Source: Streptomyces sp. V3I7 (GTDB lineage Bacteria > Actinomycetota > Actinomycetes > Streptomycetales > Streptomycetaceae). From it: a stretch of DNA of 64,000 bases. A program made the translations under genes and the position numbers. Shown here one piece after another: positions 9,835-14,931 of this stretch. Below the pieces are notes generated by a model. The model saw only the letters and a program-made list of their open reading frames with translations, made no database searches and had not been told where the DNA came from. The first letter of the stretch is position 1, and every line of letters begins with the position of its first letter. The DNA lies in assembly GCF_030817495.1 (NCBI RefSeq), contig NZ_JAUSZK010000001.1, forward strand, positions 4,009,001 to 4,073,000, written 5' to 3'.

Positions 9835-10349
9835 CCGAGCCCACGAAGCCCGAGCTGCCCGCGCTGCGCGAGATGCGCTGGTGGGACATCGACCCGGTGC
9901 TGGAGCTGGAGAAGGCCCTCTTCCCCGAGGACGCCTGGTCGCGGGGGATGTTCTGGTCCGAGCTGGCCCACTCCCGGGGCCCGGAGGCGACCCGGCGGTA
10001 CATCGTGGCCACCGGGGGCGACCGGAAGATCGTCGGCTACGCCGGACTCGCCGCCCAGGGCGACCTGGGCGACATCCAGACCATCGCCGTCGCCCGCGAC
10101 CTCCAGGGCACCGGCCTCGGCGCCCGCCTGCTGACCGAACTGCTGCGAGCCGCGACCGCCTTCGAGTGCGCCGAGGTGATGCTCGAGTGCCGCGTGGACA
10201 ACATCCGCGCGCAGAAGCTCTACGAGCGCTTCGGCTTCGCCCCCATCGGGTTCAGGCGCGGCTACTACCAGCCGGGCAACGTCGACGCCCTGGTCATGAG
10301 CCTCACCGACCCGTCAAACTCCGTACAAGAAACCGAGATCAATGGCTGA
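9831..10349 (+). CDS. rimI: Ribosomal-protein-alanine N-acetyltransferase RimI-like (GNAT)
   Basis: GNAT acetyltransferase, 172 residues. It begins [25 protein letters not shown], typical of RimI. The acetyl-CoA site is [20 protein letters not shown] (V-x-x-x-x-Q/R-G-x-G), followed by [19 protein letters not shown] and GFRRGYY. The GTG start overlaps the tsaB stop by 4 bp, and the end overlaps tsaD by 8 bp. The tsaB-rimI-tsaD order is the standard bacterial arrangement. In E. coli RimI acetylates S18; the Streptomyces substrate is not known from sequence. Confidence 0.93.
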
Positions 10350-11448
10350 CTCACGCGACGAGCCTCTCGTACTCGGCATCGAGACCTCCTGCGACGAGAC
10401 CGGCGTCGGCATCGTCCGCGGCACGACCCTGCTGGCGGACGCCGTCGCGTCCAGCGTCGAGGAGCACGCCCGCTTCGGCGGCGTCGTGCCCGAGGTGGCG
10501 TCCCGGGCGCACCTGGAGGCGATGGTCCCGACCATCGACCGCGCGCTGAAGGAAGCGGGCGTGAGCGCGCGCGACCTGGACGGCATCGCGGTCACCGCCG
10601 GACCCGGCCTGGCCGGCGCCCTACTGGTCGGCGTCTCGGCGGCCAAGGCGTACGCCTACGCCCTCGGCAAGCCGCTGTACGGCGTGAACCACCTCGCCTC
10701 CCACATCTGCGTGGACCAGCTGGAGCACGGCCCGCTCCCGGAGCCGACGATGGCGCTCCTGGTCAGCGGCGGCCACTCCTCGCTGCTGCTGTCCTCGGAC
10801 ATCACCTCCGACGTCCGCCCGATGGGCGCGACGATCGACGACGCGGCGGGGGAGGCCTTCGACAAGATCGCCCGCGTGCTGAACCTCGGCTTCCCGGGCG
10901 GCCCGGTCATCGACCGCTACGCACGCGAGGGCGACCCGTCGGCCATCGCCTTCCCGCGCGGCCTGACCGGCCCGCGCGACCCGGCGTACGACTTCTCCTT
11001 CTCCGGGCTGAAGACGGCGGTGGCCCGCTGGATCGAGGCCAAGCGGGCCGCGGGCGAGGAAGTCCCGGTGCGTGATGTCGCGGCCTCCTTCCAGGAGGCG
11101 GTCGTCGACGTGCTGACCAGGAAGGCGGTGCGGGCCTGCCGTGACGAGGGCGTCGACCACCTCATGATCGGCGGCGGCGTCGCGGCCAACTCCCGGCTGC
11201 GCGCCCTGGCCCAGGAGCGCTGTGAGAAGGCCGGCATCCGGCTGCGCGTCCCGCGCCCCAAGCTGTGCACGGACAACGGCGCGATGGTCGCCGCGCTCGG
11301 CGCGGAGATGGTGGCCCGTAACCGGTCCGCCTCGGACTGGGACCTGTCCGCCGACTCCTCGCTGCCGGTCACGGATCCGCATGTCCCCGGGCAGGGCCAC
11401 GGCCATGACCACGTGCACGAGGTCAGCCAGGAGAACCTGTACTCGTGA
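10342..11448 (+). CDS. tsaD: tRNA N6-adenosine threonylcarbamoyltransferase TsaD
   Basis: Catalytic subunit for t6A37: it transfers threonylcarbamoyl from TC-AMP to tRNA. Motifs in order: [15 protein letters not shown] (phosphate loop), VNHLASHI with the metal-binding pair H117/H121, [10 protein letters not shown], the GEAFDKIAR region, and [11 protein letters not shown] with a C-terminal DNGAM metal Asp. 368 residues, with a His-rich tail ([11 protein letters not shown]), a common actinobacterial extension. ATG at 10342, inside the rimI 3' end. Confidence 0.96.
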
Positions 11449-11737: not shown

Positions 11738-11743
11738 TATGAT
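11738..11743 (+). promoter_or_regulatory. -10 box of the tRNA-Gly unit
   Basis: TATGAT is a near-consensus -10 hexamer 46 bases before the mature tRNA, so a transcript starting near 11750 would carry a 5' leader of about 34 nt. No good -35 is visible. Confidence 0.5.
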
Positions 11744-11783
11744 CATGACACGCGAACGGCCGGAACTCCGGTACGGACGCAGT

Positions 11784-11856
11784 GCGTTGGTGGTCCAAGG
11801 AAAGACGCCCCGCTTCCTGCGGGGAAATGCAGGTGCAAGGCCTGCCCGGCGCTCCA
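11784..11856 (+). tRNA. tRNA-Gly(UCC) with encoded CCA and atypical T loop
   Basis: A complete 73-nt cloverleaf. The acceptor stem GCGTTGG (11784-11790) pairs with CCGGCGC (11846-11852), 7 bp with two G-U pairs. T8 and G9 follow. The D arm is GTCC-AAGGAA-AGAC (three strong pairs, G18G19 present), then G26. The anticodon stem is CCCCG/CGGGG with loop CTTCCTG: U33 present, anticodon TCC at 11815-11817. The variable loop is AAAT. The T stem is GCAGG/CCTGC with loop TGCAAGG. Discriminator U73 and CCA (11854-11856) close it. G1-C72, C2-G71, U73 and C35C36 are bacterial tRNA-Gly identity features. The oddity is G55: the arm reads GUGC where elongator tRNAs have GTPsiC. The same GUGC substitution is known from staphylococcal peptidoglycan-specific tRNA-Gly. 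A terminator begins one base after the CCA. Confidence 0.85.
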
Positions 11857-11857
11857 T

Positions 11858-11893
11858 GAACACCCCGCCCCAGTCAGCTGGGGCGGGGTGTTC
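11858..11893. terminator. Strong bidirectional hairpin terminator
   Basis: 16-bp perfect GC-rich stem (11858-11873 with 11878-11893) and a TCAG tetraloop. It ends the tRNA-Gly transcript and also lies just beyond the stop of the converging methyltransferase gene. Confidence 0.85.
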
Positions 11894-11911: not shown

Positions 11912-13090
11912 TCAGCCCACTGGACCGCCGATCAGCATCGTCGGCGCCCCCGCGACCCGGGTGAGGAACACCGTCGCCGCGTTCGGTCCCTGTGGCTTGA
12001 CCTTCTTCCGCAGTTCCTCCGGCTCGACCGCCGAACCGCGCTTCTTCACGGTCAGGGTGCCGACGCCGCGTTCCCGCAGCAGGGCCTTCAGCTTCTTGAC
12101 GTTGAAGGGGAGTTGATCGGTGATCTCGTACGCCGACGCGTGGACCGTGTCGTGCAGCTCGTCGGACGTCACGTAGGCGATGGTCGGGTCGATCAATCCG
12201 CCCCCGACCTCCTCGGCGACGTCCGCCACCAGGTGTGCGCGGATGACGGCGCCGTCGGGCTCGTACAAGTACCGCCCCACGGGCCGCACTTCAGGGTCGG
12301 GCAGCCCCCGACCGACCAGCGAGCGCGGGCCCGGCAGCAGCGTCGCGCGCATGGCGCCCGGACGGACCCCGGCGCCGAACCACAGCACCGCCTCCTTCAC
12401 GTCCCCGCCGTCCGAGATCCACTCGGCCTCGGCCTCGGCCGGGATCGCCTCGTGGGGAATGCCGGGCGCGATCTTCAGCGCAGCGCGCGGAGCGGCCGTC
12501 GCCGCGCCCACCGCCCAGGACAACGGCGGCGAGTAGGCCTCCGGGTCGAAGATGCGGCCCCGGCCGCCGCGCCGCGCCGGGTCCACGAACACGGCGTCGT
12601 ACCCGGAGGTGTCGACCTCCGTGACGTCCGCCTCCCGCACCTCGATCAGGTCCTCCAGCCCCAGAGCCTCGGCGTTCGCCCGCGCGACCTCCGCCGTCAG
12701 CGGGTCCCGGTCGACGGCCAGCACCCGGATCCCGGCCCGCGCCAGCGCGATCGCGTCGCCGCCGATCCCGCAGCACAGGTCCGCGACGGACGTCACCCCC
12801 AGCTCGTTCAGCCGGCCGGCCCGGTACGTCGCCACGCTCGTCCGCGTCGACTGCTCGACCCCGTTCGGCGTGAAGAACATCCGCGCCGCGTCCTCGGCGC
12901 CGAACTTCGCCGCGGCGCGCTGGCGCAGCCGGGCCTGGCCGAGCGCCGCCGAGACCAGGTCGGCGGGGTGGTCGCGGCGCAGCCGGGTGGCGACGGCGAG
13001 CTCGTCGGACGGGTGGGTGTCGCGCACCTCGTCGAGGAGGGCGAGGCCCTCGGGGGTGAGCAGCGAGCGGAAGGAGAGCAGGTCGTTCAC
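11912..13090 (-). CDS. Class I SAM-dependent methyltransferase with THUMP-like C-terminal domain
   Basis: Likely RNA- or DNA-directed methyltransferase. The Rossmann core has motif I VADLCCGIGGDAIALAR, an acidic ribose-binding turn VLAVDRDPLTAEVA, and a catalytic-loop VFVDPARRGG. The last ~80 residues (PFNVKKLKALLRERGVG, KKRGSAVEPEELRKKV) match the THUMP-like domain fused to such enzymes. I take the GTG at 13090 (392 aa, N-terminus NDLLSFRSLLTPEG). The frame is open to 13198, but that extension is Arg-rich and would run into the divergent promoter. No clear Shine-Dalgarno is seen. The target is unknown. Confidence 0.88.
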   Translation of the reverse strand: MNDLLSFRSLLTPEGLALLDEVRDTHPSDELAVATRLRRDHPADLVSAALGQARLRQRAAAKFGAEDAARMFFTPNGVEQSTRTSVATYRAGRLNELGVTSVADLCCGIGGDAIALARAGIRVLAVDRDPLTAEVARANAEALGLEDLIEVREADVTEVDTSGYDAVFVDPARRGGRGRIFDPEAYSPPLSWAVGAATAAPRAALKIAPGIPHEAIPAEAEAEWISDGGDVKEAVLWFGAGVRPGAMRATLLPGPRSLVGRGLPDPEVRPVGRYLYEPDGAVIRAHLVADVAEEVGGGLIDPTIAYVTSDELHDTVHASAYEITDQLPFNVKKLKALLRERGVGTLTVKKRGSAVEPEELRKKVKPQGPNAATVFLTRVAGAPTMLIGGPVG

Positions 13091-13180
13091 CGGGTCATTG
13101 TGGGCCAGCCGGTGGACGCCGCGCCTCCGGCGGCGGTGTCGGGCCCAGAACGCCTCCCGTGCCTGCGAGGATCCGGCACC

Positions 13181-14116
13181 ATGCGAGCGGTGCGACAAAA
13201 TGACAAATACGGGGCGCTGGTGAGGAAGGCGGCCGTCCGGGGCGGCATCGCCGTGCTGGCCCTCGTCGCCGTCATGCCCGGCTGCTCGGCGTCGGGCAGG
13301 GGAACGGACGTACTACCGGCTCCCGGTCAGCAGCCGCTCAAGGCGCCCGCCGCCCCCGCCCTGGACAGCTACGCGGCCCGGCTCGGCGCCGACCACGACG
13401 CCCTGGTCGCCGCCGCCGACCGCTGGGGCCTGGGCCGGGTCCCGCTGCTGCCCCCGCCGCCTCCCGCGCACAAGCCGAGGATCACCGTTCGCGCCGGCTT
13501 CGAGGTCCGCGACCAGGAGGAACTGGACCTGCCCCCGGTCTTCACCACGATCCCCACCCGGCAGAAGGTCGTCTTCCTCACCCTGGACGACGGCGCCGAG
13601 AAGGACCCCGGGTTCCTGCGGATGATGAGCGACCTGCGGATCCCGTACACGGCCTTCCTCACCGACGAATCCGCCGGCGACGACTACGGCTACTTCCGGC
13701 GGATGCGGTCCCAGGGCGTCACCCTCGACAACCACACCCTGCACCACCCCTACCTGCCCGGCCTGTCCTACGAGGAACAGCGGGACGAGATCTGCGGCAT
13801 GCAGGACGTCATGGAGAAGCAGTTCGGCAAGCGGCCGACCGTCTTCCGCCCGCCCTACGGCAACTACGACCGGGACACCCTGCTCGCCGCCCGGTCCTGC
13901 GGGATCAAGTACGCCCCGATCTGGAGCGAGGAGGTCTTCGCCGACCACTGGGAGTACCGCGAGGACGACCGGAACCTGCACCCCGGCGACATCGTCCTCT
14001 CCCACTTCCAGGACCCGGCCGAGTGGAACGGCACCATGACCCAGATGGTCCGGCGCTTCCTGAACCGGGTCACCCGCGACGGGTTCGCGGTGGCACGCCT
14101 GGAGGACTACCTGTGA
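13181..14116 (+). CDS. Polysaccharide deacetylase-family lipoprotein
   Basis: Extracellular NodB-type carbohydrate deacetylase. ATG at 13181 with GAGG about 11 bases upstream, 311 residues. A signal peptide ending MPGC (about residue 36) suggests lipidation. The NodB domain (about residues 125-311) shows motif 1 FLTLDDGAEKD, motif 2 NHTLHHPYL (metal His residues), motif 3 FRPPYGNYD and motif 5 GDIVLSHF with its His. All are intact, so an active metal-dependent deacetylase of peptidoglycan or another wall glycan is likely. It overlaps the following paralogue by 4 bp. Confidence 0.9.
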   Translation: MRAVRQNDKYGALVRKAAVRGGIAVLALVAVMPGCSASGRGTDVLPAPGQQPLKAPAAPALDSYAARLGADHDALVAAADRWGLGRVPLLPPPPPAHKPRITVRAGFEVRDQEELDLPPVFTTIPTRQKVVFLTLDDGAEKDPGFLRMMSDLRIPYTAFLTDESAGDDYGYFRRMRSQGVTLDNHTLHHPYLPGLSYEEQRDEICGMQDVMEKQFGKRPTVFRPPYGNYDRDTLLAARSCGIKYAPIWSEEVFADHWEYREDDRNLHPGDIVLSHFQDPAEWNGTMTQMVRRFLNRVTRDGFAVARLEDYL

Positions 14117-14931
14117 GCCCCGCACCCGCCCCGCGCCGCGCCGTGCGGGCCGCCGCGGCCGTACTGGCCGCCGCCGCCCTGCTCACCGGCTGCGCCCAGT
14201 CCGTCGACCCCATCGAACGGCTCGGCAAGAAGGCGGCCCAGAGCGTACGTTCCCACACCCCGGCCGCGCGGCAGCCGTACCGCCGCTGGGGGCTGCCGGC
14301 CCCGCTCGCCCCGGCCCCGAGGCCCGCCTCCCGCCCCGCGCCGCCCCGCACGGCCGGCCCCGCCCTGGCGCCCGTCGTGGACCACGTCCCCACCCGCGAC
14401 CGGGTCGTCTTCCTCACCTACGACGACGGCGCCGAGAAGGACCCACGCTTCGTCGACATGGTCCGCGAACTACGGCTCCCGGTCAGCCTGTTCCTCACCG
14501 ACACCGTAGTCGGCCCCGGTTACGCCCACTTCGCGCGCCTGCGCTCGGTCGGCGCCGGCGTGCAGAACCACACCCTCGACCACCCCGCGCTCCCCGGCCT
14601 GCCTTACGCCGGCCAGCGCGCCGAGATCTGCGGCCAGCAGGACAAACTCACGTCCCGCTTCGGCATCCGCCCCCGCTTCTTCCGCCCGCCCTACGACCGG
14701 TACGACACCACGACCCTGCGCGCCGCCGCCGACTGCGGTGTGGCGGCCGTCGTCCTCTGGCGCGCCACCGTCACCTCCGGCGGCCTCTCCTACACCCACG
14801 GCGACCACCGCCTCCGCCCCGGCGACATCGTCCAGATCGGCCCGGACGACATCAGAGAACGTACGACCAGGGTCCTGCGCCGCCTCCAGAAGGAGGGCCT
14901 GACGGTAGCCCGCATCGAGGACTACCTGTAG
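14113..14931 (+). CDS. Polysaccharide deacetylase-like lipoprotein lacking the motif 5 histidine
   Basis: Tandem paralogue of the preceding gene, starting at a GTG that overlaps its stop (GTGA); 272 residues. A signal peptide with lipobox LLTGC (Cys about residue 27) precedes a Pro/Ala-rich linker. The NodB motifs are FLTYDDGAEKD, NHTLDHPAL and FRPPYDRYD. The fifth reads GDIVQIGP, whereas the sister protein has GDIVLSHF, so the catalytic-site His of that motif is missing. It may be a binding protein or a weakened enzyme. Confidence 0.87.
   Translation: MSPAPAPRRAVRAAAAVLAAAALLTGCAQSVDPIERLGKKAAQSVRSHTPAARQPYRRWGLPAPLAPAPRPASRPAPPRTAGPALAPVVDHVPTRDRVVFLTYDDGAEKDPRFVDMVRELRLPVSLFLTDTVVGPGYAHFARLRSVGAGVQNHTLDHPALPGLPYAGQRAEICGQQDKLTSRFGIRPRFFRPPYDRYDTTTLRAAADCGVAAVVLWRATVTSGGLSYTHGDHRLRPGDIVQIGPDDIRERTTRVLRRLQKEGLTVARIEDYL

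Follow-up and report, generated by a model that had tools for sequence, protein, structure and literature searches.

An accessory family of G55 glycine tRNA genes in Streptomyces that probably serves largely outside translation

The diversion of aminoacyl-tRNA from translation to cell walls and natural products is a largely open question. The closest described systems come from staphylococci. As described in the consulted sections of PMC4052509, three staphylococcal non-proteinogenic tRNA-Gly have lost the pairs G49-U65 and G51-C63 and also G18G19, and loss of the 49-65 and 51-63 pairs is taken there to indicate that EF-Tu is bound weakly. The same sections report aminoacyl-tRNA as a substrate of FemX and VanK in S. 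coelicolor. In the consulted part of PMC12945691, Orf11 and DhpK are presented as Fem-related enzymes of natural-product pathways that use Gly-tRNA, and the section of PMC9976931 consulted gives the bacterial glycine identity set as G1-C72, C2-G71, C35, C36, and U73. A literature search among open-licence PMC papers found no paper on the Streptomyces tRNAs described here.

The gene analyzed lies in a stretch of 64,000 nt from Streptomyces sp. V3I7, referred to as the window (Table 1). An earlier note on this DNA had described a complete cloverleaf with anticodon UCC, U73, encoded CCA, and the T loop UGCAAGG. All of this was read directly in the sequence, and both ARAGORN, which called tRNA-Gly(tcc) over the same positions, and the tRNA model RF00005 agreed. 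The tRNA has a 7-bp acceptor stem, a 3-bp D stem, the anticodon loop CUUCCUG (UCC, U37), and the T arm GCAGG-UGCAAGG-CCUGC with G55; it ends with U73 and an encoded CCA that provides C74. The -10 element was found where the note had placed it, 46 bases before the tRNA, and transcription would start about 7 bases downstream of TATGAT. A terminator had been proposed one base past the CCA. A hairpin of 16 pairs is indeed located there, but the consensus scan of the window recognized no T-rich terminator tail, nor did it recognize a -35 element. Further downstream, at about 13200-14931, the window holds two consecutive polysaccharide-deacetylase-like ORFs, the second matching PF01522 and the first assigned by sequence reading.

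Table 1. Positions of the tRNA gene, its accompanying elements, its neighbors, and the second G55 tRNA-Gly of the same genome (window coordinates unless a contig is given)
Feature	Position	Strand	Basis and remarks
tsaD, upstream neighbor (context only)	10342..11448	+	Pfam TsaD, 2.2e-95
-10 element TATGAT, presumed own promoter	11738..11743	+	Sequence reading; TAnnnT kept across type A members
Possible small leader hairpin CCGG-AACT-CCGG	11760..11771	+	Weak; seen in sequence/alignment; sequence varies between sites
Type A tRNA-Gly gene (anticodon UCC)	11784..11856	+	Sequence reading, ARAGORN, RF00005
16-bp hairpin, putative transcription terminator	11858..11893	+	Sequence reading, fold
Convergent methyltransferase with THUMP-like domain (context only)	11912..13198	-	Pfam Thump_like 1.1e-24, Methyltransf_25 1.3e-7
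Type B tRNA-Gly(UCC), own genome	G000:C1:3243447-3243519 (L184 148-220)		Just upstream of tRNA-Gly(GCC)

Beyond what the note had described, the window tRNA belongs to a multi-copy, dispersed gene family, which we named type A. The odd T loop had been expected to lower the scores of standard predictors. RF00005 (Infernal) matched 11784-11853 with 39 bits (E 2e-7; 121 bases searched), and in the whole genome 69 matches above the cut-off were listed, 68 of them at 47.2-79.7 bits and the lowest, at 37.3 bits, being a sister type A copy (L006). Type A thus scores low, but it remains above the gathering score of 29. Detection depended on the stretch searched: RF00005 missed the window tRNA in a 2-kb stretch, the other two of the three type A copies of the genome were absent from the whole-genome listing, and when 10 complete loci totalling 55 kb were searched at E up to 1, nothing was listed even for L006, so that this last outcome is uninformative. 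ARAGORN called no tRNA-Gly for the groups with CUCCAA or CAGCCG anticodon loops or for L028, L031, and L059. Elsewhere in the same genome, at G000:C1:743932-744023, ARAGORN predicted a tRNA-Sec (UCA), and RF00005 stayed below its cut-off there.

The three type A cores of this genome occupy unrelated places. By BLAST, the core was present in 51 of 101 Streptomyces genomes. The covariance model R1 matched 63 of 121, and this number was corrected to 62 by removing G025, where the match (L173) turned out to be a tRNA whose T loop, UUCGA, is normal; the other 59 genomes had no type A. Carrying genomes held one to six matches and were larger (9.13 vs 7.96 Mb, p 4.6e-7). Type A was also found in 70 plasmid records (68 Streptomyces and 2 Streptantibioticus); S. 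clavuligerus ATCC 27064, for instance, carries it on plasmid pCLA1. Copies occupy several inherited sites, most commonly the one that follows tsaD and is also seen in the window. Other sites appear, by our reading of the sequences, to adjoin an LCP-like gene, mdh, or an Hsp20-like gene. No gene family accompanied type A across sites in the neighbor clusters listed, and the ten annotated plasmid neighborhoods (smallest plasmid 21 kb) had nothing visibly in common beside it. Two loci, L175 and L180, hold decayed copies, and in plasmid copy L394, which looks decayed too, base 73 is C and the -10 element is missing; part of the family is thus in turnover. Near-mirror pairs were seen at the chromosome ends of G091 (37150/10229427 and 49196/10217381) and G068 (31051/12093685), an arrangement that terminal inverted repeats would produce.

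In Actinomycetota outside Streptomyces, R1 matched 39 genomes at 29-45 bits. Of 23 such loci viewed, 20 read as common tRNAs in which the T loop has TTC, and no tRNA was visible in the stretch displayed for the other 3. A strict pattern, CTTCC...GTGCRA, was found in 32 of 40 Streptomyces genomes and in 4 of 354 others when 394 genomes of the class were searched, and the three of the latter four that were checked had no ARAGORN tRNA call; since the pattern misses TTTCC loops, which are frequent in the second tRNA family described below (type B), it says little on other families. The looser G55 pattern GGTGCRANNCCN7CGCTC occurred in 69 of 121 genomes, but it also matched the background control and was dropped from the counts. 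At L172 (G073:C253:14554-14628), another tRNA-Gly with G55 was seen; it has the loop CUUCCGG and belongs to a separate sequence lineage.

The structure was analyzed in an R1 alignment of 106 matches (71 distinct rows) from 100 loci, which were picked from 234 loci with a match, many of these 234 overlapping; some of the loci may come from a single genome entered under two names. Paired cells amounted to 99.9%, and 8 of 20 pairs had changed on both sides. None of 500 shuffles reached this value and slid controls paired at 39-49%, although the alignment was fitted to the R1 structure, which favors pairing statistics. Removal of one incomplete row and one type B row left 104 full-length type A rows with 31 distinct cores. 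These keep the core contacts U8/A14, A15/U48, and U54/A58 and also C56; G18 is present in 104 and G19 in 103, and position pair 26/44 swaps between G-A (90), A-G (13), and A-A (1). With a score above the RF00005 gathering value and a covarying cloverleaf that retains the core contacts, type A belongs to this tRNA family, and it is very likely a real tRNA gene. In a few copies (L234, L271, L182, L178, L179, L398), the D loop co-varies with T-loop bases 59-60: AAGGAAA occurs with UGCAAGG, AAGUCAA or AAGCAA with UGCAAUC, and AAGUCAA of L398 with UGCAAGC. This suggests an unusual elbow contact.

Promoter and hairpin were conserved together with the tRNA. Among 69 distinct members, 68 had a TAnnnT element in the corresponding 35 upstream bases (compared with 1.4% of 35-mers drawn at random from these loci), and in 68 the 55 bases downstream folded below -25 kcal/mol (16% of random 55-mers). 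Alignment of 24 distinct spacers at the tsaD site, a comparison that the earlier note had proposed, gave a mean column identity of 0.98 for the core and 0.88 for the 35-base leader vs 0.67 in the upstream and 0.68 in the downstream flank. The stems and G55 are conserved, the opposite of one outcome by which the earlier note would have been refuted. The hairpin sequence at these 24 sites shifts, and its pairing stays, as judged by eye. These features predict a stand-alone transcript that starts behind a -10 element of its own and ends in a hairpin. The window tRNA alone was predicted to fold into a cloverleaf of unremarkable stability (z -1.84). The 139-base stretch including leader and hairpin was stable (z -5.05); its lowest-energy fold contains the anticodon and T hairpins, lacks the acceptor stem, and is therefore not a cloverleaf.

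Conservation within type A separates charging from decoding. G1, C2, G3, C70, G71, C72, U73, C74, C35, C36, and G55 are invariant in all 104 rows, so the glycine identity set is fully present; the C73 of plasmid copy L394 is an exception outside this set. The anticodon loop is CUUCCUG in 77 copies, CUUCCCG in 16, CUCCAA in 8, CAGCCG in 2, and CUGCCG in 1, and additional plasmid copies read CAUCCG (L395) and CAACCG (L398). Bases 33 and 34 vary while C35C36 is constant. Position 37 is a pyrimidine in 93 copies and the other 11 have a six-base loop, so that the elongator trait of a purine 37 within a seven-base loop was not found. Drift of the decoding bases around a fixed C35C36 is what one would expect of a loop that is read by the synthetase and not by the ribosome. 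The encoded CCA, which the note had listed for the window copy, is no family feature, as it occurs in 53 of 104 copies. C74 is fixed and the following bases are variable, which indicates a need for CCA addition; the elongator tRNA-Gly genes of the same genome likewise have a fixed C74 with variable bases after it. Taken by its identity bases, type A is likely chargeable with glycine.

The T arm was compared with that of the elongators. Besides type A, the genome has normal tRNA-Gly genes for UCC and CCC and three for GCC, and their UCC, CCC, and GCC species have UUC T loops and the pairs G49-U65 and G51-C63. In the T stem of type A these pairs are replaced by G49-C65 and A51-U63, the latter in 103 of 104 copies. 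All 37 distinct ARAGORN calls viewed (one doubtful; a subset of the tRNAs) in loci of this genome without type A had UUC. The non-translational part of the earlier reading found support in the sequence: the identity bases and G55 are kept in 104 of 104 rows while decoding features decay, the T-stem pairs of elongators are replaced, and tRNA-Gly genes of staphylococci have this T arm and a similar loop. Type A is probably used largely outside translation.

A contig scan for tRNA-Gly with G55, a CUUCC loop, and encoded CCA returned at least 120 stretches. The 80 matches listed comprised 62 from Streptomyces, 7 from Staphylococcus, and 11 from other taxa. The staphylococcal matches listed read CUUCCCG and GGUGCAARUCC, so the GUGC that the note had ascribed to staphylococcal tRNA-Gly was confirmed in the loci viewed, together with a matching anticodon loop. 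For 6 of the 11 listed matches from other taxa, among them Intestinimonas, Ruminococcus, and a bin of Propionibacteriaceae, ARAGORN called a tRNA-Gly at the matching place, and three of these six had a normal A37 loop. As G55 occurs with a normal loop in a few other taxa, G55 alone proves nothing on non-translational use. G55 and a normal A37 loop stand together in tRNA-Gly(UCC) at L230, L278, and L285, two of these bins belonging to candidate phyla and one to a cyanobacterium.

Streptomyces has a second G55 tRNA-Gly, which we named type B (Table 1). RF00005 scored the copy of this genome with 51.1 bits, and ARAGORN on the same genome missed it. Its T arm is probably GCAG(U)G-UGCAAUU-CCUGU, a proposed pairing in which a single U bulges out of the stem; this arm is absent from the minimum-energy fold. 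A pattern for its 3' part (≤2 mismatches) had between one and three matches in every Streptomyces genome searched (121 of 121) and zero in the controls. Type B had no match in Streptomyces plasmids. All 59 matches viewed (22 distinct) had a normal loop with A37. Type B adjoins tRNA-Gly(GCC) in the genome studied, in G078, and in G038. It resembles type A in the G55 T loop, the glycine identity bases, UCC and, under the proposed pairing, A51-U63, and differs in A18, the normal seven-base loop with A37, and its one to three core copies.

What was directly established for type A is the gene, its family, the covarying structure, the conservation pattern, and the distribution. The best explanation, which we regard as reasonably probable, is that type A is a supernumerary, autonomous glycyl-tRNA that would act largely outside translation and serve non-ribosomal glycine transfer. 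Its transcription would begin at a -10 promoter of its own and stop at the hairpin; the transcript would then be trimmed, and the CCA-adding enzyme would complete the 3' end where CCA is not encoded. Glycyl-tRNA synthetase would charge it, as the invariant identity bases suggest. The G55 T arm without strong EF-Tu pairs and the non-decoding loops would then keep the glycyl-tRNA mostly from translation, leaving it free for a non-ribosomal glycine-transfer reaction. Fem-type enzymes of peptidoglycan synthesis would be the obvious users, with type A as an accessory addition and not an essential supply; the first candidates are these wall enzymes or natural-product Gly-tRNA enzymes such as Orf11 and DhpK. 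Several findings weigh against this explanation: 59 of 121 genomes lack type A, the neighborhoods viewed contained no linked enzyme gene, G18G19 and a G-C pair at 49-65 set type A apart from the staphylococcal tRNAs, G55 occurs with normal loops elsewhere, the tRNA with its leader and hairpin is not predicted to fold best as a cloverleaf, and some copies are decayed.

A narrower form of this explanation, whose odds are contained in those given above, would reserve type A for FemX, as its source of glycine for the LL-DAP-Gly bridge. The T arm and anticodon loop resemble those of the staphylococcal genes, S. coelicolor FemX and VanK use aminoacyl-tRNA according to the sections of PMC4052509 consulted, and FemAB (PF02388) was present in 121 of 121 Streptomyces genomes. 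Type A, in contrast, was present in only 62 of 121. Genomes with type A had a mean of 1.92 FemAB genes (matches halved), compared with 1.71 in those lacking it (p 0.35), and among 1605 predicted neighbor ORFs of 234 loci (about 1-8.5 kb, many overlapping) phmmer detected no FemAB homolog beside type A, one query ORF being clearly in-frame. Across the class, FemAB occurred in 176 of 394 genomes, 136 of them among the 354 non-Streptomyces genomes. Given the lack of a difference in FemAB numbers, the larger genomes, and the presence in about half of the genomes, type A behaves as accessory DNA and not as a general FemX supply. The cell-wall use claimed by the earlier note thus gained partial but no specific support, and the FemX-donor form is doubtful. 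The universal type B fits a core role better and appears to be the better cell-wall candidate; because it is universal, its co-occurrence with FemAB is uninformative. A possible arrangement, which we put forward tentatively, has two tiers of non-ribosomal glycine tRNAs: type B would be the universal core, probably for the FemX bridge, and type A an accessory, horizontally circulating tRNA with a loop freed from decoding (6 or 7 bases, N33, N34) and C35C36 held only for the synthetase, feeding another glycine-transfer chemistry.

Type A might instead be an uncharged, tRNA-shaped small RNA, a decoy or regulator that binds a tRNA-handling protein or a toxin. The predicted stand-alone transcript with a hairpin end, the dispersed and plasmid-borne copies, and a weak match to skipping-rope RNA agree with this. 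We consider it unlikely, since exactly the glycine identity bases are invariant, including C35C36 in otherwise free loops and U73-C74, and since the 3' ends resemble those of the genome's own elongator tRNA-Gly genes. Identity with skipping-rope RNA (RF02924) was rejected: the two share a four-stem shape and align weakly over the core, but the match reached 17.3 bits vs a gathering score of 36.7. Weak matches below the cut-off occurred in 17 of 61 Streptomyces and 4 of 14 control genomes and none of the 61 exceeded it, and the type A core was absent from all 8 skipping-rope loci viewed. That type A is an ordinary extra elongator tRNA-Gly(UCC) would suit the seven-base loop with U33 and UCC in 93 of 104 copies, but those 93 have a pyrimidine at 37, the other 11 have six-base loops, all 104 have G55, the T-stem pairs may bind EF-Tu weakly, and a normal UCC gene already exists, so that this reading is very improbable. 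A decaying or selfish, functionless tRNA copy is scarcely credible: the patchy, multi-copy occurrence, its tie to genome size, and some remnants would suit it, but covariation, the identity of the core relative to its flanks at the tsaD site, and the -10 element and hairpin retained at unrelated sites speak against it.

Other identities were rejected. The many plasmid copies found by BLAST could suggest the end or repeat of a mobile element, yet neither the largest neighbor clusters nor 14 plasmid regions viewed (10 annotated) had a constant neighbor or transposase. A phage origin was dismissed, as 50,697 phage records contained no type A match at E 0.01. A riboswitch or attenuator is at odds with the convergent next gene in the window. 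A small peptide (AUG CAG GUG ...) was rejected because the CUCCAA group reads AUG UAG and is not coding there. For a shared promoter regulon, TAnnnTnGATCTTG had six matches in the genome of the window, two of them type A; the other four had no visible common theme.

If the favored explanation of type A as a glycyl-tRNA for non-ribosomal transfer is true, an accessory tRNA-Gly together with a universal G55 tRNA-Gly makes the question of aminoacyl-tRNA diversion testable. In that case, tRNA predictors also appear to include non-translational tRNAs among the decoders.

Compared with the elongator tRNA-Gly(UCC) of its own genome (G000:C1:2312528), type A shares the acceptor identity, U73, and C35C36, and the elongator differs in its UUC T loop, G49-U65, G51-C63, and a purine at 37. 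The staphylococcal tRNA-Gly genes used for comparison are, according to the literature (PMC4052509), the tRNAs of the pentaglycine bridge. Type A differs from them in that its pair 49-65 is G-C and not A49-U65, and it keeps G18G19, as the earlier note had said of the window copy. It also has six-base-loop, GCC, and ACC variants, lies outside tandem tRNA arrays, is dispersed and plasmid-borne, and occurs in about half of the species, where no link to a Fem enzyme was seen. Like the staphylococcal genes, type A combines the anticodon UCC, a GUGC T arm, a CUUCCYG loop with a pyrimidine at 37, the pair A51-U63, and several copies per genome.
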